IMG/VR virus record: IMGVR_UViG_3300032246_001124
Location: 1 to 49,730 of that record
Length of the DNA: 49,730 bases
Direction: 5' to 3' (one strand)
DNA from: a virus
This document shows, piece after piece, positions 19,420-43,336 of the stretch. The translations under genes and the position numbers were made by a program. The notes beneath the pieces are model-generated. The model did no database searches and was not told where the DNA came from. It saw only the letters and a program-made list of their open reading frames with translations. How positions within the stretch are numbered: position 1 is the stretch's first letter; every line of letters starts with the position of its first letter.

Positions 19420-21453
19420 ATGTCAGAAAGCGTATTTTCTTTTCGTCTATCAGAAGAATTTGTAAATAAATATCAAACCATTCCAGCACCATTTGGATTC
19501 TCAGATGCAGGATCTAACTCGTTAGGAGAGGTAACATTTATTCGCACATATTCTCGTGTTAAAGAAGATGGAACAAAGGAACGCTGGCATGAAGTATGTC
19601 GTCGTGTAATCGAGGGTATGTATTCAGTTCAAAAAAACCATGCTAAGGATAATCGCCTACCTTGGAATGATAACAAGGCTCAGAAGTCTGCACAAGAAGC
19701 CTTTCAAAGAATGTTTGAATTGAAATGGACTCCACCAGGTCGTGGTCTCTGGGCATTTGGAACTCCTATGACTATGGAGAAGCGTAACTCAGCATCCCTT
19801 CAAAATTGTGCAATGGTTTCAACAAGAGACATTGATCGTAATGACCCAGGTGCTTTATTTGCTTGGGTAATGGATGCATTAATGTTAGGTATTGGTGTAG
19901 GGTTTGATACCCTTGGAAAAGACAAACAAATGTCTATTTATGCCCCTACAGAACCAGTATCTATTTATGAAATTCCAGATACTCGTGAAGGTTGGGTTGA
20001 ATCTGTTAGACTACTTATTAATTCATTTCTTCGTGCAAATCAGTCTATTCAAGAATTCAACTATGACCTTATCCGTCCTCTGGGTGCCCCAATTAAAGGC
20101 TTTGGAGGGGTTGCTAGCGGTCCAGCACCACTAGTTGATCTTCATACACGCATCCGCAATGTAATTGGCTCTAGAGCAGGAGATGCTCTTGATAGCCGTG
20201 CAATTGTAGACCTAGTAAATCTTATTGGTACCTGTGTGGTATCAGGAAATGTTCGTCGTTCTGCTACTCTTGCACTTGGCGTTCCAGAAGACGAAGGTTT
20301 TATTAATCTTAAAAATCCAGAAGTATTCCCAGAAAGAAATTCATATGATCCAGAAAAACCAGGTTGGGCATGGATGAGTAATAACTCTATTGCTGCTGAG
20401 GTTGGAACTAAGTATGAAGATTATGTAGATTTAATTGCAGACAATGGAGAGCCAGGTTTTATCTGGTTAGACGTTGCTCGTAATTATGGCCGTCTTGCCG
20501 ATGCACCTGATTATAAAGATGCTCGCATTATGGGCTTCAATCCTTGTGCGGAGCAGCCATTGGAATCATACGAACTTTGTACACTTGTAGAGGTGCACTT
20601 AAATCGTCATGAGTCCAAGGAGGACTTCCTCAAGACATTGAAGTTTGCCTATCTTTATGGAAAGACTGTAACTCTTATGCCAACTCATTGGCAACAGACA
20701 AACGGAATTATGCAACGTAATCGCCGTATTGGAACATCCCTTACAGGCATCGCTGCATTTGCTGATGAACATGGTTTGCCAGTTATTCGTGAATGGATGG
20801 ACGAAGGGTATAAAACAATTCGTAAATATGATCATTCATATTCAGAGTGGCTCTGTGTTCGTGAATCAGTTCGTGTAACAACAGTTAAACCGTCAGGATC
20901 TGTATCACTTCTTTCTGGTGCTACTCCTGGAGTTCACTGGGGACCTGGTGGAGAATTCTATCTTCGTGCTATTCGCTTTGGTAACACTGATCCAATGCTC
21001 CATTTGTTTAAAGCAGCGGGGTATAAAATTGAAGCAGATCTTGTATCAGCAAATACATCAGTGGTATATTTCCCAGTAGCATCTGGACACAAACGTGCAG
21101 AGAAGCAGGTTAGCCTATTTGAAAAAATTGGTTTGGCAGCAACTGCTCAGAAATATTGGTCAGATAATGGTGTTTCTGTAACCCTATCTTTTGACAAAGA
21201 AGAGGAAACAAAGTTTATTGCTCCAGCACTTAATATGTATGAAGGTCAGTTAAAGGCAGTCTCGTTTCTTCCTATGGGAAATAAAACTTATCCACAACAG
21301 CCTTATACAGAAATATCAAGAGAAGATTACAACTCATATGTTGGCAAGATTGGCAAGATTGACTGGTCTGCTATTTATGATGGTGTGGAAAATCTTGAAG
21401 CAGAAGGTGAAAGTTATTGCAGTACTGACGCTTGTGAGATTAAGTTTTATTAG
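19420..21453 (+). CDS. nrdJ: Class II (B12-dependent) ribonucleoside-triphosphate reductase
   Basis: The 677-aa protein converts ribonucleotides to deoxyribonucleotides with adenosylcobalamin, supplying DNA precursors. Active-site elements are in place: C130 in LQNCAMVS, C376 in NPCAEQ with its conserved Glu two residues on, C387 in ELCTLVEV, and a C-terminal redox pair C667/C672 in YCSTDACEIKFY. The 11-residue gap between C376 and C387 matches C408/C419 of the Lactobacillus enzyme. That enzyme is about 740 residues, so this one is somewhat short. The monomeric RTPR type fits best. It has its own promoter and leader between a fibre terminator and structural genes, an uncommon position. Its start has AAAGG upstream. 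Confidence 0.9.
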   Translation: MSESVFSFRLSEEFVNKYQTIPAPFGFSDAGSNSLGEVTFIRTYSRVKEDGTKERWHEVCRRVIEGMYSVQKNHAKDNRLPWNDNKAQKSAQEAFQRMFELKWTPPGRGLWAFGTPMTMEKRNSASLQNCAMVSTRDIDRNDPGALFAWVMDALMLGIGVGFDTLGKDKQMSIYAPTEPVSIYEIPDTREGWVESVRLLINSFLRANQSIQEFNYDLIRPLGAPIKGFGGVASGPAPLVDLHTRIRNVIGSRAGDALDSRAIVDLVNLIGTCVVSGNVRRSATLALGVPEDEGFINLKNPEVFPERNSYDPEKPGWAWMSNNSIAAEVGTKYEDYVDLIADNGEPGFIWLDVARNYGRLADAPDYKDARIMGFNPCAEQPLESYELCTLVEVHLNRHESKEDFLKTLKFAYLYGKTVTLMPTHWQQTNGIMQRNRRIGTSLTGIAAFADEHGLPVIREWMDEGYKTIRKYDHSYSEWLCVRESVRVTTVKPSGSVSLLSGATPGVHWGPGGEFYLRAIRFGNTDPMLHLFKAAGYKIEADLVSANTSVVYFPVASGHKRAEKQVSLFEKIGLAATAQKYWSDNGVSVTLSFDKEEETKFIAPALNMYEGQLKAVSFLPMGNKTYPQQPYTEISREDYNSYVGKIGKIDWSAIYDGVENLEAEGESYCSTDACEIKFY

Positions 21454-21488: not shown

Positions 21489-24400
21489 ATGTCTAACCCG
21501 TCAAATCTGTATGCAGAGAAAATTTTCTCAGAACACCCACTGGTTTTGTGGGCACTTGATGATCAGGCTGACTATGTAAGTTTAATAACTGAAGCACAGA
21601 GAAATATTGCAGAACCTACAGCACTTTGGGACGGCACTGGCGGAGGAACAACTCCAATGTCAACACCAGCAACTGCTCCATTTCAAGATAGTGCTACCTC
21701 AATTATTTATGCAGATATTCCAGCAACAAATGGTGCAGAAACAATTGCCTGGAGTCCAGACCTTGTAAATTTTCTTAGTTTAGATAGTAGTCTTGAAACA
21801 GTTTCAGTTGGAACGTATTTTTATTCTAATAGTATATATGTTCAGTCTATATCTATTGGAATTGAGTATACAGATCCTAGTACATCTCAAGTAGTTCGAC
21901 AGTTTGAAACATTTGATAGCCCAATATATGCAACTTGGAGTTTTATATCTGGAACTTTTACTGTACCAAATGTTAATGCAAGTTTTCGTGTCTTGCTTAA
22001 ATTTACAACTCTAACTGGCGGAGCAACAACAGATGATTATCAAATATTTTTTAATGGTATAAGTGCAGGGCAATGGTCAGAAGAATTTCATGCATTTTCA
22101 CTTGGAGTACAAACAATTGCTTTTCCAAACACAGTTGCAATAGATGGTAATCGTGCAATTGAGGCACAGGCTTATGGTCTTGGAGATAAGAGTGGTTATT
22201 ACCTTTCTGGGCTAACTTCTTTATTTGCTAAAAATACAAGCATACCTTTAGTTTATGGAGCATCAGGTTTAACTAAGATTGTTCCAAATTCTGATAACCC
22301 ATCATTAATAATTCCTGGACAAGGGTTTTTAAATGAAGCAGGTAGACATAAAGAATACACTGTTGAGTTTTGGGCAAGAATTAATTCAGATGCAACCTTA
22401 CCTAAAAGAATTTTTGGACCGATTGCTTCATCAGATGGACTATATGTAGAGTCTGGGTTTTTAACTTTAAAAATTGATAAATCATTTAAATCACACTTTG
22501 TTGGCGAATGGTATAGACCAATGCTGATAAACATTAGATTAGTTAAAGACTCGGCAACACTTCTTGTAAATGGAGAAGAGGTTTTATCTATTTCTTTTGA
22601 TACAAAAACTATTCCTCTGCCATCAATATTAAATGATCCAAGTGGAAAAGAGCAGGACTGGCTTGGATTTTATGCATACAATGATGTTCCAGAAATTGAG
22701 ATTGATTGTGTTGCTATCTATCCTTACCAAGTTCCAGTAACAATGGCAAAGCGCAGGTGGGTGTACGGGCAAGGAGTAGAATCTCCAGAAGGAATTAATT
22801 CAGCATACGGAGGAACGTCTTCTTTTATTGATTATACTTTTGCAGACTATACGGCAAACTATTCTTACCCAAGTTTTGCAAAATGGCAACAGGCTAGTTT
22901 TGATAATTTGTTTGCATCAAGAACATCTTTACAAACACCAACATACACTTTACCTCAAATATCTATTGGTTCAAAAACTACAGAAGATTTGTATAATGAT
23001 AATCAAGCAGTACAAGTTGGATTAAATAATTTTATAACATTTAGACCTAATGAAACTTGGGCAACAACTCCTGCATATTTTAACTTTCCACAATTTAGCA
23101 TCCTTAGTGATGAGATACATGCTATATATGCTGTAGTTCAGATTAATGACAATGATATAACACAACAAACAATTATTGAAATAAAAAATACAATAAATGG
23201 AAATCGTTTTAGCATTAGAAAAGATGGCTCAAATATAGACTACTACTTAAAGTATAATGGCGTAGAAGAAGAAATTTTAATTGGACAAGAATTTCCACTG
23301 GGAATAAAATTTGCAGTTGGAATCAACATAGAAAACCTTGTTGCTGAATTTGGTGGAAATGTTGCATCATTTTTTGGCAATAGAAATGGATTAACCGTTT
23401 ATTTTGGTGGAGACGACTCCGCACAAAAGACATTTACTGGATATATGTATTCTCTTGGATTCTGTACTCTTTTTAATAAAACACAAATTGTTGATCATTT
23501 TTTGAGTGATGGAACTGCAAATATTAATGCAGGAGATGAACTACTTTCTCATACAGCAAGTTATACATTATTGCCTTTAGAGGCATATGACAATTTTTAT
23601 TTAGATATTGGTGTTTCTGGATATTGGGAAGACTATATGCCATTATCTTATTTTGCACAATATGTTAAAAATGATATTGGTAATGAATACTATGACTTAG
23701 ACTTTTTGCAATTTAATGTTGACTATCCCCTACCATCAAAAATAACTCAAACTCAAGTTGGCATTGAGTCATTTTCTTATGCAGAATTAGATGCAATATA
23801 TTCTTCTCCAACCCAACAGACATACACAGATCTAGCAAACCAAGGCGCAGAAGGATGGCTAGACTATCTTGATATGGCGCAAGCATCAATAAGTGCATAC
23901 GCATATGATACTGCAGGGGCATCAATAAAAAGTTATATCACTTTTCAATACATAGATGAAGGTGCCAATTCTCCACAAAGTTATTTCCCCAAATTAGATA
24001 AACCTTTAGCAAGTAGAATTTTAGATATAGATGATCACACACAGTGGTTAACTACAAAGTTTGAAGTCGTTGACAATACCCTTATCTATCCAACCAAAAC
24101 AATTGATTTTAATAAGTTAGCAATTGTTTATAGTCTTGAGTTTAATATTCGTGGATCACTAACTAAGCCAATAACTTTAAGAAATCTCTCACTTTCTTCT
24201 CAAGTCTTTAATAACAACTCATTTAATCCAGTTGGAACAAAATTTGGTACACAGGTCTATCCATATAAAAAATCAGGTTTGTACTACGACTATAAAACTA
24301 AAAACCCATACACTATTTATAAAGGCAGTACGCCATATCTTTATATGACAAGAAGTTCAGGAATTGAAGTACGTGGAACTTTTGATCAATCAATTGATAG

Positions 24401-25088
24401 AGGTATCTCTATGCCAGTAAACTCAAGCCTTGCCGACAATTATAGAGTTAGTGCTTTTCAAACCTGGTACAGAAATGATAACTCAAAGTTTGAATCTACT
24501 CCTACACAATTTTTTGAGATAAAACATAAAAATGAAATTATTAAGTTTTATGTTCAATCAGTAAATACTGCGGGATCAAGAGCAAAGATTTTTGCTATTA
24601 ACGATTCTACAGGAGAAGCAACTACTGGAATATCTTATTATATAAATGGATCTATTGTGAGAGAACCTGTTTTAACAATCAAAGAATGGTCTATTATTGG
24701 TATTTCTTTTAGCAACTCATTGATCTTTGACTCATATATTGGTTCAGTAAATGTTAACGGCCCAGGGGTATTTAACAACATATCCTATTATAAAACTAAC
24801 AATCTTCAACAAATTCAGAGCAATATTACACGACCTTGGGTTAAGGTTAAAGCAGATGGAGCCACAACCTTTGACTGGCAGTATTGGGACACAAACTATA
24901 CGTGGAATGGTATGCTTATTATCTCAACTTCAGAGACTTACGGCGTAAACCCTTCAGAAATCTATAAAACATATATTGGCACTAATAAGATTATTATTGA
25001 TGATGGGCAAGGAATGACGTTTGATTCAAACAAGATTAAGGTGTATAAGGATGCATCTTGGTCAAGTAGTATCGTAACTCCTGCCTAA
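21489..25088 (+). CDS. Large minor tail protein with LamG/ConA-like domains
   Basis: The 1199-aa protein starts with SNLYAEKIFSEHPLVLWALDD, a typical opening of LamG-type minor tail proteins in actinobacterial phages. Three ConA-like jelly-roll regions can be seen: about 286-420 ('YTVEFWARIN', 'INIRLVKDSATLLVNGEEV'), about 540-670 ('IYAVVQIND', 'FAVGINIENLVAEFGGNV'), and about 985-1105 ('VSAFQTWYRND', 'WSIIGISFSN'). Such domains bind sugars, so it may touch host wall glycans. It lies just before the portal, away from the other tail-tip genes at 43-49 kb. It has its own promoter. Confidence 0.75.
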   Translation: MSNPSNLYAEKIFSEHPLVLWALDDQADYVSLITEAQRNIAEPTALWDGTGGGTTPMSTPATAPFQDSATSIIYADIPATNGAETIAWSPDLVNFLSLDSSLETVSVGTYFYSNSIYVQSISIGIEYTDPSTSQVVRQFETFDSPIYATWSFISGTFTVPNVNASFRVLLKFTTLTGGATTDDYQIFFNGISAGQWSEEFHAFSLGVQTIAFPNTVAIDGNRAIEAQAYGLGDKSGYYLSGLTSLFAKNTSIPLVYGASGLTKIVPNSDNPSLIIPGQGFLNEAGRHKEYTVEFWARINSDATLPKRIFGPIASSDGLYVESGFLTLKIDKSFKSHFVGEWYRPMLINIRLVKDSATLLVNGEEVLSISFDTKTIPLPSILNDPSGKEQDWLGFYAYNDVPEIEIDCVAIYPYQVPVTMAKRRWVYGQGVESPEGINSAYGGTSSFIDYTFADYTANYSYPSFAKWQQASFDNLFASRTSLQTPTYTLPQISIGSKTTEDLYNDNQAVQVGLNNFITFRPNETWATTPAYFNFPQFSILSDEIHAIYAVVQINDNDITQQTIIEIKNTINGNRFSIRKDGSNIDYYLKYNGVEEEILIGQEFPLGIKFAVGINIENLVAEFGGNVASFFGNRNGLTVYFGGDDSAQKTFTGYMYSLGFCTLFNKTQIVDHFLSDGTANINAGDELLSHTASYTLLPLEAYDNFYLDIGVSGYWEDYMPLSYFAQYVKNDIGNEYYDLDFLQFNVDYPLPSKITQTQVGIESFSYAELDAIYSSPTQQTYTDLANQGAEGWLDYLDMAQASISAYAYDTAGASIKSYITFQYIDEGANSPQSYFPKLDKPLASRILDIDDHTQWLTTKFEVVDNTLIYPTKTIDFNKLAIVYSLEFNIRGSLTKPITLRNLSLSSQVFNNNSFNPVGTKFGTQVYPYKKSGLYYDYKTKNPYTIYKGSTPYLYMTRSSGIEVRGTFDQSIDRGISMPVNSSLADNYRVSAFQTWYRNDNSKFESTPTQFFEIKHKNEIIKFYVQSVNTAGSRAKIFAINDSTGEATTGISYYINGSIVREPVLTIKEWSIIGISFSNSLIFDSYIGSVNVNGPGVFNNISYYKTNNLQQIQSNITRPWVKVKADGATTFDWQYWDTNYTWNGMLIISTSETYGVNPSEIYKTYIGTNKIIIDDGQGMTFDSNKIKVYKDASWSSSIVTPA

Positions 25089-33033: not shown

Positions 33034-33672
33034 ATGGCTAATTACAGTCGTGGTACATCAACCAACATTATCGTTGGTGCAGCAGCACTATTCGTTTGTG
33101 ATACAACTTTGGATGCCGCATCATTAACTGCTCCTGAGTCTGCAAAGACTTTTAGAGACACACTTACTAACGATGCTGACTATACAAACGTTGGTTATAC
33201 AATGAACGGTCTTGAACTGCAGTTTCAACCTGACTTCGGTGAAGTTAAAGTTGACCAGATTCTTGACGTTGCAAAACTTTACAAGCAGGGAATGCAGGTT
33301 TCATTAAAGACAGCATTTGCTGAAGCAACACTAGAGAATCTTCTACTTGCTTTGGCTTATACCGAGTCCAAGATTTCAGGAACAAAGTCATCTTCAGCAG
33401 GACGAGCACTTAACCTTTCTGCAGGAGATATTGGCGAATGTCCAGTTGAACGTGGTATCGTTGCAGTAGGCCCAGGAACTGGCGATTGCGTCAATTCTGC
33501 TTACGTAGAGCGTGTCTATACAGCATACCGTGCACTTTCAATTGATAATGTTACAGTATCTGCAAAGCGTGATGAGGCTTCAATGTTTGAAGTTTCATTC
33601 CGTCTACTTCCAGAAGATACTTCTGGTTCATATGGTAAGATCGTAGATCGTACCTGGACACCAGCATCATAA
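33034..33672 (+). CDS. Major tail tube protein
   Basis: The 212-aa protein builds the tail tube. It starts ANYSRGTSTNIIVGAAALFV and is beta-rich, with 'TMNGLELQFQPDFGEVKVDQILDVAKLYKQGMQVSLKTAFAEATLENLLLALAY' near 60-112 and a conserved end 'VSAKRDEASMFEVSFRLLPEDTSGSYGKIVDRT' near 175-210. The size, own promoter, strong terminator and place before the tail chaperones agree with the tube protein. GAGGTG precedes the ATG. Like the capsid gene, it shows third-base choices of a highly expressed gene. Confidence 0.8.
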   Translation: MANYSRGTSTNIIVGAAALFVCDTTLDAASLTAPESAKTFRDTLTNDADYTNVGYTMNGLELQFQPDFGEVKVDQILDVAKLYKQGMQVSLKTAFAEATLENLLLALAYTESKISGTKSSSAGRALNLSAGDIGECPVERGIVAVGPGTGDCVNSAYVERVYTAYRALSIDNVTVSAKRDEASMFEVSFRLLPEDTSGSYGKIVDRTWTPAS

Positions 33673-33692
33673 TTTAATAAATTATACAACTA

Positions 33693-33727
33693 GCCCACTG
33701 CTCACAAGGCAGTGGGTTTTGTTGTTT
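33693..33727 (+). terminator. Intrinsic terminator after the tail tube gene
   Basis: CCCACTGC (33694-33701), loop TCACAAG, GCAGTGGG (33709-33716), then TTTTGTTGTTT. A perfect eight-base stem. Confidence 0.9.
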
Positions 33728-33741
33728 AATAAGGTGTTTTA

Positions 33742-33750
33742 TGGTAGAAT
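33742..33750 (+). promoter_or_regulatory. Extended -10 promoter of the first chaperone, leaderless type
   Basis: TG, G, TAGAAT at 33745-33750, nine bases before ATG 33760. No Shine-Dalgarno sequence lies between. Confidence 0.6.
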
Positions 33751-33759
33751 AGAATTCAC

Positions 33760-34470
33760 ATGGCTACAACAATATATAACAGCGCTATTATTCATTTGTT
33801 TGATGGCACAGAATTAGAGATTATTCCATTAAAGATTAAATATCTTCGTGAGTTTATGGATGCATTTGAGCATGTCAAAAACACAAAAGGTGATGACGAA
33901 GCAATAGAAAAACTTGTAGAATGTGTAAGAATCTGCATGAAACAATACTATCCAAGAATATCCAGATCTATTGAAGACATAGAAGACAGTGTTGACATGA
34001 GGACTATCTATACTATTTTAGACATTGCAGCAGGAATAAAAATCAATAAACAATCCGAGGAACCTGTTAAAGATCAGGCAGAACGCAATGGCGATACCTG
34101 GGCAACTCTTGATTTAGCAAAACTAGAATCTGAGGTTTTTTTGTTGGGAATTTGGAAAGACTACCAAGAATTAGAAAAATCTTTATCAATGGCAGAGTTG
34201 ATGGCAACACTAGAAAGTAGCAGAGAACTTGATTATAATGAAAAAAAGTTTTTGGCTGCAATTCAGGGAGTTGACTTAGATAAAGAATCTGGCAGCGACA
34301 AAGGCCAGAAAGAATGGGAAGACATGAAGGCTAGAGTATTTTCTGGCGGAGCAACATCTGATGCAAATGATGTTCTTGCTTTGCAAGGAGCAAATGCTGA
34401 AAAAGTAGGGTTTGGAATTGGGATGGGTCTTGACTATGAAGACGGTAGAGACCCCTCTCTTATGCTATAA
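33760..34470 (+). CDS. Tail assembly chaperone, long (G-T type, no frameshift)
   Basis: The 236-aa protein has an N-terminal G-type domain (about 1-96) with LFDGTELEIIPLKIKYLREFMDAFEHV and LVECVRICMKQYYP, and a C-terminal T-type domain (about 105-236) with 'TWATLDLAKLESEVFLLGIWKDYQELEKSLSMAELMATLE'. Other phages make this fusion by a -1 frameshift from two overlapping genes; here one continuous frame encodes it. Its N-terminus is paralogous to the separate short chaperone at 34497. The protein should hold the tape measure protein in place for tube assembly. The message is probably leaderless. Confidence 0.75.
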   Translation: MATTIYNSAIIHLFDGTELEIIPLKIKYLREFMDAFEHVKNTKGDDEAIEKLVECVRICMKQYYPRISRSIEDIEDSVDMRTIYTILDIAAGIKINKQSEEPVKDQAERNGDTWATLDLAKLESEVFLLGIWKDYQELEKSLSMAELMATLESSRELDYNEKKFLAAIQGVDLDKESGSDKGQKEWEDMKARVFSGGATSDANDVLALQGANAEKVGFGIGMGLDYEDGRDPSLML

Positions 34471-34471
34471 T
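34463..34471 (+). promoter_or_regulatory. Extended -10 promoter of the short chaperone
   Basis: TG, C, TATAAT at 34466-34471, overlapping the stop of the preceding gene. The leader has AGGAGG (34488-34493) before ATG 34497. Confidence 0.65.
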
Positions 34472-34496
34472 TAACATAGCCTAAATAGGAGGAAAA

Positions 34497-34829
34497 ATGG
34501 CAACAACAGTACATGAGGGTGAAGAACTTATCCTAATGGATGGCTCAAAGATCAAGGTTCGTCCCTTGAAGATTTCTTTGCTACGTCCATTTATGAAGAA
34601 GTTCGAACAGGTAGCGGCAGTGGCAGAAGATAACGAAAAGTCTATGACTCTTCTTATTGAATGCGTACAAATTGCTATGGAACAATACAATCCAGATCTT
34701 GCAAAAGATCTCAAGGCTCTAGAAGATATTCTAGACCTTCCAACAGTTTACAAGGTAATTGAAGCGGCCTCTGGCGTTAAACTTACTGATGCAAATTCTT
34801 TGCTGAACACAGTTCTTGCAAACAATTAA
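34497..34829 (+). CDS. Tail assembly chaperone, short (G type)
   Basis: The 110-aa protein aligns with the first half of the 33760 product: MATT, LxxxDGxxIxVxPLKIxxLRxFMxxFExV, LIECVQIAMEQYNP, LDLPTVYKVIEAASGVK. It lacks the T domain, and no overlapping open frame after it would give one. It should be the G chaperone, made in excess over the G-T form. A strong AGGAGG precedes it and its own promoter lies in the previous gene's end. The tape measure gene begins 17 bases later. Confidence 0.75.
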   Translation: MATTVHEGEELILMDGSKIKVRPLKISLLRPFMKKFEQVAAVAEDNEKSMTLLIECVQIAMEQYNPDLAKDLKALEDILDLPTVYKVIEAASGVKLTDANSLLNTVLANN

Positions 34830-34846: not shown

Positions 34847-37800
34847 ATGAGTGATGTTAATGCCAATATTGGCGTACAAATTGATACGTCGTCCGCATTA
34901 GCAGAACTCAAAAATCTACAGCGTCAACTTGCAAATTTTCATGCATCAATAGCAAAAACCAGTGCCGCTGCAACGGCAGCGCAAAAGGGATTACAAACTA
35001 ATCTCTTAAATTCTATCAATGCTACAGGGCAGTTTACTGCCACAATGGGCAATGTTAGAACATCTACGGAGTCATTTACTCACGCATTAGAGTCTAATAA
35101 ACTTTCGATGCGTGAGTATTTCCGTTATGCTGGCGGGGCATCAAAAACTTTTGGAAGACTATTTAAACAAGAGTTTGACACAATTGGCAAAGTAGCAGAA
35201 GATCGTGTTAAGAAAATGCAGACCCAGTATATCAAGATGGGTCGTGATGCTAACGGTGCTATAAAGGCAATGGCTATTACACCACAAACCTTAAACATGA
35301 ATGACTATGCTACTAAAACAGCAATGGCAGCACAAAAGCAAGCATTGTTTAATCAGGTAGTTAGACAAGGATCAACAAGTCTTTTAAATTTTGGTAAGAA
35401 CACACAGTGGGCAGGCCGCCAACTTATGGTTGGTTTTACAATTCCTCTTGCATACTTTGGCACAACTGCTTCTAAAGTGTTTATGGATCTTGAGGCTCAA
35501 GCAGTTAAGTTTAAACGTGTTTATGGAGATATGTTCACCACAACAGAACAAACAAATAAGGCTCTGGCAGATGTTCAAGCACTTGCAGAGGGATTTACTA
35601 AATATGGTGTTGCTGTTAGCAAGACAATGGACATGGCATCCCAAGCCGCAGCAATGGGTAAGACTGGGGCAGACCTTACAGCACAAGTTGCACAGGCAAC
35701 AAGACTTGCAGTTTTGGGTAACGTAGAACAGTCTCAGGCTCTTGAAACAACCGTATCACTTACTAATGCTTTTGGTATAGCAGCAGAAGATCTCGGAAAG
35801 AAAATCAACTTTCTTAACGCTGTAGAAAACCAAACTGTTGTATCAATTGAAGATTTAACTATTGCTATTCCAAAAGCAGGACCAGTTGTCAAACAACTTG
35901 GTGGAAATGTAGAAGACTTGGCCTTCTTCCTTACAGCAATGAAGGAAGGCGGAATTAATGCATCAGAAGGCGCTAACGCACTTAAGTCTGGACTTGCATC
36001 TTTAATTAATCCAAGCAAAAAAGCAAGTGAAATGCTTGCAGGTCTTGGCATAAATATTAAGGGTATTGTTGAAGCAAATAAAGGTGATCTTAAAAACACA
36101 GTAATAGGATTTGCACAAGCCTTAGATACACTTGCACCACTTGAAAGATCAAGAGCAATTGAACAACTATTTGGTAAGTTTCAGTTTGCTCGTCTATCAA
36201 CATTATTTCAGAATATTACTAAAGACGGAACACAGGCAAGTAAAGTTTTACAACTTACTGGAGCATCAGTAGAAGAACTTGCAATCTTATCTGAACGAGA
36301 ATTAAAAACAGTAGAAAATGCTGTTGGTACAAAATTTAAGGGTGCAATTGAAGAACTAAAATTGGCTATTGCCCCAATTGGAAAAACGTTTTTACAGGCT
36401 GTAACCCCAATTGTTGAAGTAATTGGAAAACTTCTTGATAAGTTTAATGGTTTGGGAGATGGTACAAAGAAATTTATAGTAATTGCAACTACACTTGTTG
36501 GAATTATTGGCCCAACTCTTTTGATGACTTTTGGTCTTGTTGCTAATGGCGTAGCAAATATTATTAAGTTATTTCTTGCACTTCGTGGTGGATTCTTAAA
36601 ACTAGGAGGAAACAGCAAAGTTCTTGCAGAGCAAACAAACTATCTTAATACAGAGCAACTAGAATCTGCAACGGTAGCAGCATCACTTAATCAAGCACAT
36701 ACAAGACTTACTCAATCTTTTACAGCAGAATCTTCAGCAGTAAAAGCATTAAGAAATGCATACATTGAAGCAACTGTAGCAGCAGCAAACTTTGCTAGAG
36801 CAAATCCAGGCATGATGATGATGCCAAAGTCTGCAGGCAAAGGACCAAAGAAATTTGCTGGAGGAACAACTTATGTTCCAGGAACAGGAAACAAAGATAC
36901 AGTGCCTTCTGTGCTTACCCCTGGAGAAGCAGTTATTCCAAAAAATATAGCACAAGATCCAAGGTTTCAACCAATTATTGATGCAATGGTTAATGGAAAA
37001 CTACAAGCATTTGATAATGGTACTAGCAATGCTCAGCCATTTGGAAACTCACCAAAGTTTGAACCAAAAATAGATTTAAGTGGAGCACCAGCCTCCGCTG
37101 CTAGAAGTAGTGGTAGTTACACAAGAACACATCAATTAATTATGGATAAAATGAATAATGCACAAGTTACTTCAGATGGTGTCGTTAGATTTGGTGGTAA
37201 AGCATATCCTACAACAAGTCAAAAAACTGCACTTGCTCTTAAAAAAAGAATTGAACAACTTATTGCAGATGGATATCAAACAGAAAAAATTGTAAGTGCT
37301 TTAGATAGAAATGTTGAACGTGGTCGACCAATGACTGCTTCACAACTTGACAGAAGACTTTCTATTGGTAGAGGCTCATCAACTGGAACATCTGCACCAT
37401 CATCAATTAGAAATCTTGCCAAGCAGTCTCAATCAGGCTTTATGTCAGAAACTCGTGCTATTAAAGAAGCATTAAGTAAACAAGGTGTTGTTTTAACTCC
37501 AGCACAAGAAAAGAATTTATTTAATGTTCAAGCATCTCATATTGAAGAAACAAGAAATGCTGGTGTTAAAGAGTGGAAGGCTAATAACCTTGTTGCCGAT
37601 TTAGGATATGTTAATAATTATATAAACACTGTAAAGGGTAAACTTGGAACAGATTTGCTTAAAATGTCTGATACAGAATTACAAAAACTTGGTATTGATA
37701 GAAAAGAACTTCAAAAATTACAGGCTGGAACACATCCAACTACAGCAAGTGCAGCAACAACACTAAGGGCTATTGCTCAGTATGACTCAATTCGTAATCC

Positions 37801-40800
37801 AGGATCATATCAAGCAAAAGCCGTAGTTGCTGGATTAGAGCATAGATCTAAGACTGGTTTCTACGCACAACCAATGAAGACATTAGCAGAAACCCAGCCA
37901 ATTTCAAGCAGGGTAGAAAAAGCAATAAAATCTAGAGCAGACCTACTAGAGCAAGAACAAAATGCAAAAGCAGGTAATGATTCTGAGCAGTTAATGAAAC
38001 AAATAGATAAAAACATAAGAAAGACTGCTTTAGGAAAACAAGCACCAACAAATTTTGGAACTCAAATATCTCCAACAACTGGGCACAGTTTTCCAGTTAA
38101 AGGTTTGGGTGGTATTTATCAAAAACCAGATGGCACCAAAGTATTTGTTAAGCCAGTTATGGATGAAAAGGCTGCGCTTGCTGAGCAAAGAGCAACAATA
38201 ATTGCAAGAGAAGCACATGGACTAAATTCTCCTAAGCAAGAAATTAAAACTATGGTTGATCCAACAGATCCAACAGGTAGAAGAAAACTCATAGTATTAG
38301 AATCTGCATTTGATCCTAAATTTGATCCTAATAATATGACTAACAAATTTACCAAAGATGAATACTTTAAACAACTTGTTGCTGCAAATCTTCGTGGAGA
38401 TAAAGATTTAGGGAAAGGCAATCTTTCTGGAAATGTTCTTGCTGACGTTGGAACAGCAGGAGTTTTTGAAAAGGCTTCTGGAAGTAGAGATTTTGCTAAA
38501 ACTATGCCATCTATGGCAGAGCAGGCAAAAATTAACTTACTTGGAGTAAAGGGTGGAGCAAAAAAATTCTTTGCAGAATCTACACTTAGTGTTCCTCAAG
38601 GAATGACTGCAGACGAATATCATAACAGAATGATAAAAGAAATTGATACAGTCCTTCCAAAATTAAAATCAACAATTTCTAAATTTGATTTAAATCCTGC
38701 CGAAAAAGAAGTTTACTCTGGAATGATTACAAGGCTTGAAGAGGGAAAGAAAGTTAACTGGAGAGAGTTTCATAAGATACATTCTTCTGTTCTTGCAACT
38801 AAAAAAGAAGCACTACAAGATAAAAAAACAGGACAGATAACACCAATTAAGGGTAAGTCAAAACCTAACAATATTGTTTCAAGTACTGGCAAAGCATCAG
38901 ATAGAGTAATGACTCAAGTTCCTCCAGGAAAAAAAATTGTTCAAAAACCAAGAGGATTTATTAGTTCTCGCTTTGGAGGCAAGGTTACGCTTCCAGGTTA
39001 TGCAGATGCCCCTGCTGCAACTGGGGTAAGTGTTGGAGATATTTCTCAATCACAAAGATTATCAAGAGCACAACTACTTGCTGCTACAGAAAAAATAAGT
39101 TTAACGCAAGCCAAAAAAAGAATTGCAGCAGAATCAAAACTAACATCATCAATGCAAGAAAGTACTAAAGCACAATTAACTGCAAAAGAAAAAGTCCAAC
39201 AGTTTAGTAATAAAGCAGGTTTAGGCATTGGAGCAATGAGCGGTTTAACAATTGCTGCTTCATTTGCTGGAGGAAGCATTGGAGAACTTGCTCAAAAGAT
39301 TATGCCGTTTGTATTTGGTTTACAGGGCATTGTTGCACTTCTTCCAATGCTAATGAACCCTTGGGTTGCACTAGTTGCAGGCATAACTACCCTAGTTGTT
39401 GGAGCAAAACTTATTGATTCTAATAATAAAAAGATGGCACAAAAACAATCGGACTATATTGATTCAATTTCTGCAACTACAAATAAAATGCAAAAAGTTG
39501 GAGAGATTACTGGTAAGGTTGGTGCTTCTGAATTAATGGCTAGACGCAGAGCAGATTCTTCTCCAGATGCATTTAGCAAGCAATATAATCGTGCAGGGCA
39601 ACAATTTGGAACTAACTTTATGGGTTCTGAAATTGGTAAAGAAATATCTAAAGGATTTTCTGATAACTTGCTTAATGGTAGATCTAGTGCAGTAAAACAA
39701 TTTGCTTTACAGTTATCTAGTTATGTGTCTGATGGGGTTATTAATGGAGTACAGGCAGGAGATATTGCTAGACAAATAGCAGTTGATTTCCAAGACATGA
39801 CTTTATACCCTGCCATCATTGGAGAACTTACAAGTATTATTGGGCCTGATGGCGCTGACATCCTAAAAGATCCATTAAAGATTAGAATAAAAATAATTAA
39901 TGAGCAGTCTGCTTTTGCTGGACTTACTTCAGAAGGAATTTTAGGAAATAAAGGTAATGGCATTGGAACACTTGCATCATTTGGAGGAGGATCATCCAAT
40001 AGAATTGGATTGACTACAAAATCTGCAGCAGCAGCCTCAGCAGCATATTCTCAAACATTAGAGTTGGCAAAAGCACAAGTTGATGCTACAGAAGTTCAAT
40101 ACCAAAAAGACTTGCAAGTTCTACAAACAAAGAAAAATATTGCAAAAACAGAACAGGATAGGGTTGCTGCACAAAAAGAAATCGATACCTTGACCAATAA
40201 AAATAAAGAAGATAATGTTAAACTTGGTGTAGAAATAGCCAAAATATTAAAAGATCAAGAAAAAGCATTTGATAAAACTTCAAGAAAAGAACAGGGCTTA
40301 TTGCCTGGACAAATTAATTATGCACAAAATGCATTTATTGAAGCAAGCAAAAAGCAAGTTACAACAAAGTTTAAGGGAACACAATTAGAAAATCAAGTTC
40401 CCGCATTTTTAGAAACAACTAAAAACCTTGCAAGCAAAGATTTAGAGATTAAGATTAATGCTATTGCAGCATCAGGAACTAATCCAGTATTACTTACAGG
40501 ATTAATGCAAATGTTTAAAGGTGATGAAAAAACATTAAACAAACAAATAGATTTGGGCATTGCCACAAGAGGTGTAGATGAAACTGTTGCGCTTATTGGA
40601 AGCCTTGGAAATATTAAAGATGAAAAACTTCAAAAAGAACTTTTTGTAAAAATTAATGCTGTGCAAGATAAGGGTAAATTTGGAGACCTTCAGTCTACAC
40701 TTACAAAGATATCTGAAATGACTGGAAAAGATTTTAATATTAATACATATCTTAAAGTTAATGGTTTTGCTAAACTTGATGCTCTTTCAAAAGTGCTTAG

Positions 40801-43336
40801 AAATATTCAAAATGTTCCAGACCCAATAACAAAAACTACACAATTAGAGAATACAGGAATTAGTACTCAAGTTTTTCAGGGTATAGTAGATAACTGGGAA
40901 TACTTTATGTCACTTCCAGAAACAGTTCGCAAAAATGCAATTACTACATATACAACTGCATACGATATGGTTGGTCCAGATCAAGTTGCTGGTGAAATTA
41001 AAAAAAGACTTGCTGGAGCAAAAGGACGTTCTGCTGCTTCACTAAAGAAGTATTATGATTCACCTGCAGGCCAAGCATCAGTAAAACAAGACCTTGCAGC
41101 ACAGGCAACAAAACCTCAATATGCTCCAGGACAAATTCCACCAAAAAGTAGCAAGAGTGTAGTAGATTCAACAACCAAAAAAGATAGAGATACAACTCTT
41201 GATGATTTGCTTAAGAAGTTAAAACTTACAAGAGATGCAAGTATTAATGCTATGGGTGGCCTTACAGAACTTAGAAATGTATTTAAAAAGGCTGGCGGAG
41301 ATGTTAGAATATTTAATGGCCTTGATCAAGCACTTTCTAAACTTGGAGCAGATTCAGGATTTATTGATTTTATTGGCGGTATGGATAATGCAACCGAAAA
41401 AGGCTACGTTAATGCACAAAAACTTAAAAAAGGTATTATTGAATTAACAGATGATGGCAAGATTGCACTTAAGGGTTATCAAGAAGCACAATTAGGAGCA
41501 TTTAGTAGCACATCAGCACAAACAATATCAGAACTTAAAAATCAAAGAACTGGGTTTGTGGCACTTAAGGCTGCTGGCATAGGGTCGGCAGATGCACTAA
41601 ATATGGTTTCTGATGCAAATTTTGCAATCTCTTTACGTGCCGCAAAAACAACAGAAGAAGTTAAAAATTTAACTGAAGCATTTAAACAGCAAAAGAAAGA
41701 GGCAGAACTTACACTTGCCTCAACAGACCCACAACAATATTTTGATAATCAAATGGCAGTTGCGACTAGACAACTTAATTTTCAAGAGGCAATGGCAAAA
41801 AGAACTTATGAACCACAAATTGCTGCTACAGAAGAATTAATTAAAGCAAATAATGTTCTTATTGATCAAGCACAACGCAAACTGGAAATGGATGCTACAT
41901 ATGGTAGCCGTCAAATTGATAAAATTAATTCTGAAATTGAAGGTTTAAATAGACAAATTGCAACAGGTGTAGATGTTACAATGCAACAACTATCTGATCA
42001 ATCTGCTAAACTATCTGAAGATCAAGCAGTTATTGGTCATCAAGTTGATGCAATTAATCAAAAATATGATCTTCAAGAACAAGCACTTTCAAAAATATCA
42101 GATCTTAACCAAGAAATTATTGCTGAAAAGAAACAACAAATATCTCTTGCAGATGCTTTAACTCAAGGAGATATTTCAACAGCAGCGCAAGCAGCACAAG
42201 ATATTCAGGCTGCTTCATCAAGTAGAGCACAAAAATTAGCATCAGATGCAATGACTGCAGCAAGAAATGCAGAAATTAATGCGGTAAAGGGACCATCAAC
42301 TGGACTAACTGCCATACAAATAAATGAATCACAATATTTAATTGATCGCCAACAATATACTCTTGCACAACAACGTGCTGCAATAGAGACACAGATTGCT
42401 GCAAAACAAGAAGAAATTTATAAAATTGATCAATTGCGTAAACCAATTATTGCAGAAATTACACGACTTGAAGACCTTAATTACAACTATGCTAATAACA
42501 TTCTTCCGGCAATAAAGAAAAAATTAGATGATGAACTTGCTGCAATTGATGCACAAAGACTTAAATGGACTGATGCACAACTTGCAATTGAGGGTGCTAA
42601 CCTAAGAACAAAAGAATTCCAAGACAAACTTACAGCCGCTAACGGAATACTTACATCAATAAGTAAACTTTGGGGAGATATTACAGATAAAAATCTTAAG
42701 GTTACACTTACAACTATTGAAGAAGTTATTAAACAACAGGCTTCATTTGTAAAAGCAGGAACTGTTCAAACAAAAGAAGGCCCCGTAGATGTTGATGCTT
42801 CGGGAAGATCCACAGATGGTTCTATACCAATTGCTGTATCAAGTGCTCCACCTGCTCCTGCACCACAAACTTATAATGACCAACGAGTAGCACAAATTAA
42901 AGCAGAAGCAGAAGCCGCAGCAGTTGCAAAACAAAAAGCAATAGAAGCAGCATCAGTTGCAGCAGCAAACGCAGCAGCAGAAGCGGCTGCAAAACTTAAT
43001 ATGTCTGCTAAGTTAAGAATGATGGACAGATATGCTCTTGCTTCTGGTGGAATAGTTCCTAAATATTTTGCTTCTGGAGGATTATCTCGTGGTACCGACA
43101 CAATTCCAGCAATGCTTACTCCAGGAGAATTTGTTATTAATAAAAACTCAGCAAATAATCTTGGAGTTAATAATCTTAATAAATTAAATAGTGGAGAATC
43201 CTTGGGCAGTTCAGTGTATAATTATAATGTAGGAATTAATGTTACAAATGCCGATGCCAATGCTAACGATATTGCAAGGGCAGTCATGGGACAAATTAAA
43301 TATATAGATTCACAAAGAATTAGAGGACAAAGGTAA
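34847..43336 (+). CDS. Tape measure protein with an embedded kinase-like segment
   Basis: The 2829-aa protein sets tail length and crosses into the host at DNA entry. A TP901-type tape measure domain lies at about 170-480. Hydrophobic segments at about 541-580 and 1457-1520 could enter membranes. Motifs DTVPSVLTPGEAVIPK (about 683-698) and DTIPAMLTPGEFVINK (about 2750-2765) are typical tape measure elements. Long coiled-coil stretches (about 1740-1790, 2300-2560) fill the rest. Between about 1070 and 1330 lies a non-coil segment with K1102, G-D1185-K-D1187, N1192 and D1200-V-G1202, an arrangement like protein or lipid kinases. GAGGTG precedes the ATG. Confidence 0.85.
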   Translation: MSDVNANIGVQIDTSSALAELKNLQRQLANFHASIAKTSAAATAAQKGLQTNLLNSINATGQFTATMGNVRTSTESFTHALESNKLSMREYFRYAGGASKTFGRLFKQEFDTIGKVAEDRVKKMQTQYIKMGRDANGAIKAMAITPQTLNMNDYATKTAMAAQKQALFNQVVRQGSTSLLNFGKNTQWAGRQLMVGFTIPLAYFGTTASKVFMDLEAQAVKFKRVYGDMFTTTEQTNKALADVQALAEGFTKYGVAVSKTMDMASQAAAMGKTGADLTAQVAQATRLAVLGNVEQSQALETTVSLTNAFGIAAEDLGKKINFLNAVENQTVVSIEDLTIAIPKAGPVVKQLGGNVEDLAFFLTAMKEGGINASEGANALKSGLASLINPSKKASEMLAGLGINIKGIVEANKGDLKNTVIGFAQALDTLAPLERSRAIEQLFGKFQFARLSTLFQNITKDGTQASKVLQLTGASVEELAILSERELKTVENAVGTKFKGAIEELKLAIAPIGKTFLQAVTPIVEVIGKLLDKFNGLGDGTKKFIVIATTLVGIIGPTLLMTFGLVANGVANIIKLFLALRGGFLKLGGNSKVLAEQTNYLNTEQLESATVAASLNQAHTRLTQSFTAESSAVKALRNAYIEATVAAANFARANPGMMMMPKSAGKGPKKFAGGTTYVPGTGNKDTVPSVLTPGEAVIPKNIAQDPRFQPIIDAMVNGKLQAFDNGTSNAQPFGNSPKFEPKIDLSGAPASAARSSGSYTRTHQLIMDKMNNAQVTSDGVVRFGGKAYPTTSQKTALALKKRIEQLIADGYQTEKIVSALDRNVERGRPMTASQLDRRLSIGRGSSTGTSAPSSIRNLAKQSQSGFMSETRAIKEALSKQGVVLTPAQEKNLFNVQASHIEETRNAGVKEWKANNLVADLGYVNNYINTVKGKLGTDLLKMSDTELQKLGIDRKELQKLQAGTHPTTASAATTLRAIAQYDSIRNPGSYQAKAVVAGLEHRSKTGFYAQPMKTLAETQPISSRVEKAIKSRADLLEQEQNAKAGNDSEQLMKQIDKNIRKTALGKQAPTNFGTQISPTTGHSFPVKGLGGIYQKPDGTKVFVKPVMDEKAALAEQRATIIAREAHGLNSPKQEIKTMVDPTDPTGRRKLIVLESAFDPKFDPNNMTNKFTKDEYFKQLVAANLRGDKDLGKGNLSGNVLADVGTAGVFEKASGSRDFAKTMPSMAEQAKINLLGVKGGAKKFFAESTLSVPQGMTADEYHNRMIKEIDTVLPKLKSTISKFDLNPAEKEVYSGMITRLEEGKKVNWREFHKIHSSVLATKKEALQDKKTGQITPIKGKSKPNNIVSSTGKASDRVMTQVPPGKKIVQKPRGFISSRFGGKVTLPGYADAPAATGVSVGDISQSQRLSRAQLLAATEKISLTQAKKRIAAESKLTSSMQESTKAQLTAKEKVQQFSNKAGLGIGAMSGLTIAASFAGGSIGELAQKIMPFVFGLQGIVALLPMLMNPWVALVAGITTLVVGAKLIDSNNKKMAQKQSDYIDSISATTNKMQKVGEITGKVGASELMARRRADSSPDAFSKQYNRAGQQFGTNFMGSEIGKEISKGFSDNLLNGRSSAVKQFALQLSSYVSDGVINGVQAGDIARQIAVDFQDMTLYPAIIGELTSIIGPDGADILKDPLKIRIKIINEQSAFAGLTSEGILGNKGNGIGTLASFGGGSSNRIGLTTKSAAAASAAYSQTLELAKAQVDATEVQYQKDLQVLQTKKNIAKTEQDRVAAQKEIDTLTNKNKEDNVKLGVEIAKILKDQEKAFDKTSRKEQGLLPGQINYAQNAFIEASKKQVTTKFKGTQLENQVPAFLETTKNLASKDLEIKINAIAASGTNPVLLTGLMQMFKGDEKTLNKQIDLGIATRGVDETVALIGSLGNIKDEKLQKELFVKINAVQDKGKFGDLQSTLTKISEMTGKDFNINTYLKVNGFAKLDALSKVLRNIQNVPDPITKTTQLENTGISTQVFQGIVDNWEYFMSLPETVRKNAITTYTTAYDMVGPDQVAGEIKKRLAGAKGRSAASLKKYYDSPAGQASVKQDLAAQATKPQYAPGQIPPKSSKSVVDSTTKKDRDTTLDDLLKKLKLTRDASINAMGGLTELRNVFKKAGGDVRIFNGLDQALSKLGADSGFIDFIGGMDNATEKGYVNAQKLKKGIIELTDDGKIALKGYQEAQLGAFSSTSAQTISELKNQRTGFVALKAAGIGSADALNMVSDANFAISLRAAKTTEEVKNLTEAFKQQKKEAELTLASTDPQQYFDNQMAVATRQLNFQEAMAKRTYEPQIAATEELIKANNVLIDQAQRKLEMDATYGSRQIDKINSEIEGLNRQIATGVDVTMQQLSDQSAKLSEDQAVIGHQVDAINQKYDLQEQALSKISDLNQEIIAEKKQQISLADALTQGDISTAAQAAQDIQAASSSRAQKLASDAMTAARNAEINAVKGPSTGLTAIQINESQYLIDRQQYTLAQQRAAIETQIAAKQEEIYKIDQLRKPIIAEITRLEDLNYNYANNILPAIKKKLDDELAAIDAQRLKWTDAQLAIEGANLRTKEFQDKLTAANGILTSISKLWGDITDKNLKVTLTTIEEVIKQQASFVKAGTVQTKEGPVDVDASGRSTDGSIPIAVSSAPPAPAPQTYNDQRVAQIKAEAEAAAVAKQKAIEAASVAAANAAAEAAAKLNMSAKLRMMDRYALASGGIVPKYFASGGLSRGTDTIPAMLTPGEFVINKNSANNLGVNNLNKLNSGESLGSSVYNYNVGINVTNADANANDIARAVMGQIKYIDSQRIRGQR

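Follow-up and report, generated by a model that had tools for sequence, protein, structure and literature searches.

An uncultured long-tailed phage very probably makes the two isoforms of its tail assembly chaperone, G and G-T (GT), from two genes rather than from one frameshifted gene. The phage is represented by a virus contig from IMG/VR, 49,730 bases long, which as a whole is called the window below. A long gene carries the G and T domains fused in one frame, and a short gene downstream of it carries a second G domain. The pair occupies the slot between the major tail protein (MTP) gene and the tape measure protein gene, a position that marks membership of the G/G-T family. The features of this region are as follows.

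33034..33672, plus strand: MTP gene (phrog_2175, E 1.4e-32; phrog_885 major tail protein, E 1.2e-4)
33692..33718, plus strand: predicted intrinsic terminator between the MTP gene and the long gene (11-bp stem, T-rich tail, fold z-score -4.9)
33742..33750, plus strand: extended -10 element TGGTAGAAT, 9 nt before the long-gene ATG
33760..34470, plus strand: long chaperone gene, in-frame G-T fusion (TAC-NC), 236 aa
33760..34050, plus strand: G domain of the long gene, approximately residues 1-97 (phrog_10504, E 6.9e-22)
34096..34467, plus strand: T domain of the long gene, approximately residues 113-236 (phrog_10474, E 8.8e-15 over residues 131-193)
34137..34143, plus strand: T_TTT_TTG heptamer inside the long gene; the -1 frame closes after 25 codons
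34242..34248, plus strand: A_AAA_AAG heptamer inside the long gene; the -1 frame closes after 8 codons
34463..34471, plus strand: extended consensus -10 element TGCTATAAT, promoter-like element of the short gene, overlapping the long-gene stop codon (34468-34470)
34487..34492, plus strand: AGGAGG Shine-Dalgarno (SD) sequence of the short gene
34497..34829, plus strand: short chaperone gene, G domain only (TAC-N), 110 aa (phrog_10504, E 2.1e-21)
34847..43336, plus strand: tape measure protein gene, 2829 aa (PF10145 PhageMin_Tail, E 5.3e-24)

The sequence-only reading had called ORFs of 236 aa at 33760-34470 and of 110 aa at 34497-34829, the former as G plus T in a single frame and the latter as a repeat of the G domain alone. 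Both ORFs are present, and profile searches bear out the domain assignment. In a PHROG scan phrog_10504 spans residues 1-100 of the long protein and the entire short protein; phrog_10474 follows it in the long protein, and the short protein carries phrog_10504 alone. The N-terminal 96 or so residues of the long protein share 39% identity and 69% positives with the short protein (E 2e-25), and profile-profile comparison of the two families, represented by 43 and 47 sequences, gives an alignment of 99 columns (E 1e-38). The two PHROG families have no function name. Their matches include the G and T ORFs of Streptomyces phages, most of which are annotated as tail assembly chaperones, and tblastn recovered Streptomyces phage chaperones with E values down to 1e-35. 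The window T domain aligns with the -1 ORFs of Coruscant and Circinus (WEELDLAKLE..F.LG.WK). That the homologous segments lie in separate -1 frames in these relatives and are fused here upholds the earlier reading of the paralogues as G and G-T.

Sequence searches of Pfam, Rfam and PDB returned nothing useful for the pair, with no chaperone match in Pfam or PDB. AlphaFold2 models of the long and short proteins have mean pLDDT values of 72 and 75, and the G domain is modelled as a beta-hairpin followed by helices (pLDDT mostly 72-90 in the long-gene copy). Searched against BFVD, the long model matched a tail assembly chaperone of an uncultured Caudovirales virus (E 2e-4), the TAC of Arthrobacter phage Kitkat (E 0.015) and N15 GT (E 0.07). 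The short model ranked the HK97 chaperone 2ob9 highest in PDB, with an E value of 1.6 that is not significant. The neighbouring genes are syntenic with those of cultured phages: the MTP gene with the annotated major tail protein of Coruscant, Evy and others, and the 8.5-kb tape measure gene, whose ATG lies 18 nt from the short-gene stop, with annotated tape measure proteins. Homology and synteny together point to a tail assembly chaperone system. The tape measure protein (34847-43336) is itself very long; by the usual length rule, 2829 aa would give a tail of roughly 400 nm.

The cultured relatives provide the reference layout. Eleven Stanwilliamsviridae-type Streptomyces phages and Rhodococcus phage Trina carry a single G ORF, whose 3' end is overlapped by a T ORF in the -1 frame, and a second G gene between the MTP and tape measure genes is absent from all of these loci. 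In the Streptomyces phages the open stretch of the T frame begins at a conserved GAC CCA AAT or GAC CCG GAA site or a little before it, the former (C_CCA_AAT) being that of Loccivirinae. The overlap in Trina contains G_GGA_AAA. Conservation of the T frame reaches further upstream than the annotated start (SWEELDLAKLEAE...), which is what entry by a -1 shift would predict. GenBank records of cultured Streptomyces and Rhodococcus phages (loci L001-L004 and L167-L174) annotate T as a stand-alone gene beginning at internal codons; since the conserved -1 frame extends further upstream, the G-T join appears to be missing from those records.

The window lineage is organized differently. At least 235 loci spanning both genes, some of them overlapping fetches of one contig, have GT in frame followed by G. 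Among the matches listed they comprise 124 distinct GT/G pairs, which form 43 clusters at 80% identity, and the long protein ranges down to 48% identity with that of the window. Some contigs of the relatives are about 100 kb long. The scan of relatives proposed in the sequence-only reading thus recovered the same pair throughout: every complete locus of the window lineage among the matches listed has GT in frame and G second, although the relatives came from four viral-contig scans with these proteins as queries, so that a freshwater relative that frameshifts could have escaped them. Among the matches listed, the loci with G and T in separate frames are all of the Streptomyces-phage type. In four further loci only the long gene is complete, the contig breaking off within the short gene or immediately ahead of it, and three of these four show the start of the short gene; two more are cut at the other side. 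A three-gene variant in locus L155 (3215-3968) was set aside: its GT frame is interrupted by a short tandem duplication, most likely an assembly artefact. A scan of genome contigs gave no relatives in cellular genomes. Both genes are maintained by purifying selection, with a median dN/dS of 0.15 for the long gene and 0.14 for the short gene, in metagenome loci that are phylogenetically correlated.

No sign of a hidden frameshift was detected in the pair. The short gene of the window contains no in-frame X_XXY_YYZ heptamer and is followed by no T frame, and a C_CCA_AAN or C_CCG_GAA-like site is found at the short-gene 3' end in none of the 124 distinct pairs. The absence of a slippery site and T frame after the short gene, as described in the sequence-only reading, is therefore confirmed; that reading passed over two in-frame but non-conserved heptamers in the long gene itself. 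A residual shift at T_TTT_TTG or A_AAA_AAG, yielding a truncated second product and leaving the short gene as an extra, would make use of canonical X_XXY_YYZ sites. The -1 frames entered there close after 25 and 8 codons, however. The 124 relatives have 0-5 heptamers per gene, at differing positions, GTT TTT TT(G/A) occurs in only 23 of 124 long genes, and no stretch of the long gene stands out for synonymous conservation, with none strong around the heptamers. Heptamer scan, openness of the -1 frame, position and synonymous conservation all led to the rejection of a frameshift candidate, and the residual-shift explanation is very unlikely. Less likely still, to the point of being negligible, is an assembly or sequencing artefact in which a homopolymer indel mimics the in-frame fusion in a phage that really frameshifts. 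The fusion joint does lie in AT-rich sequence, and L155 shows that a relative can carry an assembly tandem duplication, but 124 distinct pairs, drawn from numerous independent assemblies, show the fusion, and its T domain has a dN/dS of 0.15.

The two genes are preceded by contrasting and conserved expression signals. It had been proposed from the window alone that each gene has its own promoter and that the long gene looks leaderless and the short one has AGGAGG; both points extend to the 124 distinct pairs, in which an extended -10 promoter-like element precedes each of the two genes. A terminator-like GGG(C/T)TT..TT tail stands before the long gene in 113 of 123 loci. The long-gene -10 element is TG-extended in 124/124 relatives but matches TATAAT exactly in only 12/124, usually being one base off consensus, and lies 6-9 nt from the ATG in 116/124. 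In the window this distance is 9 nt, which predicts a leaderless mRNA with a leader of 0-3 nt. An SD sequence precedes the long gene in 0/124 relatives and the short gene in 124/124. The short gene starts 25 nt after TGCTATAAT, and an exact TG-extended TATAAT is found before it in all 124.

Codon use was scored over synonymous codons as the log-ratio of MTP-like over tape-measure-like usage, with each locus left out in turn. Mean scores in 36 diverse loci were +0.146 for MTP, -0.183 for the tape measure gene, -0.305 for GT and +0.008 for G, and G exceeded GT in 36/36. With training limited to the window's own capsid and tail protein genes, a model placed G above GT in 124/124. Codon use, an indirect measure taken here on related loci, agrees with an abundant G and a scarce GT.

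Seven plus-strand genes of the window, starting at 614, 2218, 8101, 13252, 14438, 25107 and 33760, have an extended -10 element 6-9 nt before the start and no SD sequence. Other window genes have a -10 element and an SD sequence, so that two initiation modes are mixed genome-wide, which fits an actinobacterial host. The host is probably a member of the Actinobacteria: the hosts of the relatives, the low GC content (37-40%) and the leaderless genes suggest a freshwater and actinobacterial origin. Isolated phages of Nanopelagicales, E7 and F5, considered as a candidate link to a cultured host, have genomes of 39 kb and 45% GC (PMC10202952). Elsewhere in the window a ribonucleotide reductase gene (19420-21453; phrog_367, E 4e-141) is flanked by structural tail-fibre-like genes and a 1199-aa ORF (21489-25088) that has no PHROG match. 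A 186-aa protein encoded at 614-1174 combines a Lar-like or zinc-finger type N-terminus (phrog_5558, phrog_2255) with an endonuclease VII domain (phrog_2633).

The origin of the pair can be approached through the G domain. In a tree of this domain the long-gene copies form one clade (99/96) and the short-gene copies another (100/96), and together they split from the cultured G proteins (100/99); the alignment has 102 columns only and Trina sits on a very long branch, so that the root is less sure than the grouping. On this tree the pair is the product of one duplication at the base of the window lineage. In-frame fusion of T to one copy would have accompanied that single duplication. The other copy would have kept the ancestral cassette, with its extended TATAAT, leader of about 25 nt and AGGAGG, while T and the slippery site would have disappeared from it. 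Of the two copies, the short gene has diverged less. Its end resembles that of an ancestral G (GVKLTDANSLLNTVLANN versus GVKLNDPNLLAMAQEALGRN in Faust), and the old slippery-site position in the window short gene now reads GAT GCA AAT. The G genes of cultured Boydwoodruffvirinae are preceded by TGNTATAAT, 22-24 nt and AGGAG or AGGAGG. The short gene shares this layout, which accordingly looks ancestral, and the leaderless start of GT looks derived.

A model for expression of the two isoforms can be put forward. (i) The product of the short gene would be G, which is abundant and coats the tape measure protein. (ii) The long gene would make G-T, the scarce form, whose T domain recruits the major tail protein. 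(iii) GT would be expressed from its own weaker -10 promoter behind the terminator and from a leaderless start. (iv) G would have a consensus promoter, an SD sequence and MTP-like codons. (v) Transcripts from the GT promoter would also read through into G, and the G promoter would make no GT, so that the gene order by itself would favour an excess of G. In place of frameshift efficiency, G would be set above GT by promoter, initiation mode and codon use. The lambda paradigm gives a measure of what is needed: the coat on the tape measure protein consists of many G and few GT, T recruits the tail tube protein, and the ratio of about 30:1 is crucial (PMC5009743). A permanent G-T fusion in TP901-1 yields normal-looking but non-infectious particles (PMC4493119), which argues that when a phage has the fusion in frame, G must come from a separate and more productive source. 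The downstream paralogue would be that source here.

It is improbable that the long protein instead works as chaperone on its own and that the short gene is a paralogue with a redundant or regulatory role, such as a dominant-negative partner or an unrelated assembly factor. The G domain of the long gene is intact and paralogues often subfunctionalise, both of which would allow it. Yet the short gene is the copy that has diverged less, it is under purifying selection (dN/dS 0.14), it is never missing from complete loci among the matches listed, it has the stronger expression signals and it directly adjoins the tape measure gene; a fused G-T without separate G is, moreover, the arrangement that gave the defective TP901-1 particles (PMC4493119). 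An explanation compatible with two genes, and competing only with the ratio mechanism, is that protein turnover or read-through transcription mainly sets the ratio and that the difference between leaderless and SD-led starts is incidental. Leaderless promoters before several other window genes are consistent with this, but the asymmetry in SD sequence, -10 box and codon use is kept in all or nearly all of the 124 pairs; we regard the explanation as possible, though doubtful.

Within the two-gene reading, the excess of G over GT is probably set by several factors together. The sequence-only reading had raised the possibility of ratio control by two initiation modes, for which the asymmetry in start, -10 box and codon use speaks only indirectly. 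Leaderless starts at other window genes make this mode part of the general repertoire of the phage, and leaderless mRNAs are not necessarily weakly translated, so the ratio may depend on more than initiation mode. The G:GT protein ratio, the transcription starts and the dominant factor are predictions from the DNA. We lean somewhat towards the fuller proposal, in which an abundant uncultured lineage of siphophage-like actinophages dropped the frameshift once, by duplication and fusion and independently of T4-like phages, and promoter strength and leaderless versus SD initiation hard-wire the G:GT ratio.

Conserved recoding has a textbook example in the tail-chaperone frameshift, and the question is whether it persists for a co-translational or stoichiometric need or is merely a ratio device. 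A two-gene lineage beside frameshifting sister phages argues that the ratio is what matters. Knowledge of the sister group means that the evolutionary switch can be reconstructed and tested, and the lineage offers a natural system for testing how a chaperone ratio is encoded. For annotators, two adjacent G-like genes can form a complete chaperone set without a hidden frameshift.

Frameshifting has been described as a conserved feature of long-tailed phages, with T4 as the exception (PMC5009743). The sequence-only reading was right to treat it as the rule but missed a two-gene precedent, which lowers the novelty: T4-like phages are described as having one short and one long fused chaperone gene (Vladimirov, Gautam and Davidson 2022, Virology 566:9-15, as reported in PMC10885494). 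The two-gene principle is already known, with earlier descriptions reported only for T4-like viruses. We take gp51 and gp26 of T4 to be this short/long pair; they are detectably paralogous (20% identity, E 2e-6) and their genes are divergently transcribed. As in the window, the T4-like short and long chaperones come from two genes without a frameshift. The defining elements of that strategy, a short gene and a long fusion sharing the short domain, are present in the window, with no homology to the T4 proteins claimed. T4, in contrast, has a contractile tail, divergent genes and sequences unrelated to the window pair, which is in tandem on the same strand, with GT first and leaderless, G led by an SD sequence, and a known frameshifting sister group. 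As far as the comparisons reach, what is new is the two-gene solution in an unrelated lineage, with an identified frameshifting sister group and a conserved asymmetry of leaderless and SD starts and of promoters.

The lambda-type G/G-T system has the same isoforms, the same slot between the MTP and tape measure genes and the same expected excess of G. It differs in that the isoforms arise by a -1 programmed frameshift; the window has an in-frame G-T gene and a paralogous G gene with its own promoter. The elements of the frameshift-made subclass are absent, there being no overlapping -1 T frame after G and, at the position of C_CCA_AAT in the cultured relatives, a slippery site in 0/124. Another close comparison is with the Stanwilliamsviridae (Coruscant, Evy, Faust, Circinus and others), which share homologous G (phrog_10504) and T (phrog_10474) and the gene order. 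The chaperone modules are homologous, with no detectable DNA similarity beyond 89 nt, and their layout is different: in Stanwilliamsviridae a lone G ORF is overlapped in the -1 frame by T, with C_CCA_AAT or CCCGGAA in the overlap, whereas the window has a fused T and a second G. In Boydwoodruffvirinae the G gene is preceded by the same cassette of extended TATAAT and SD sequence that stands before the window short gene.
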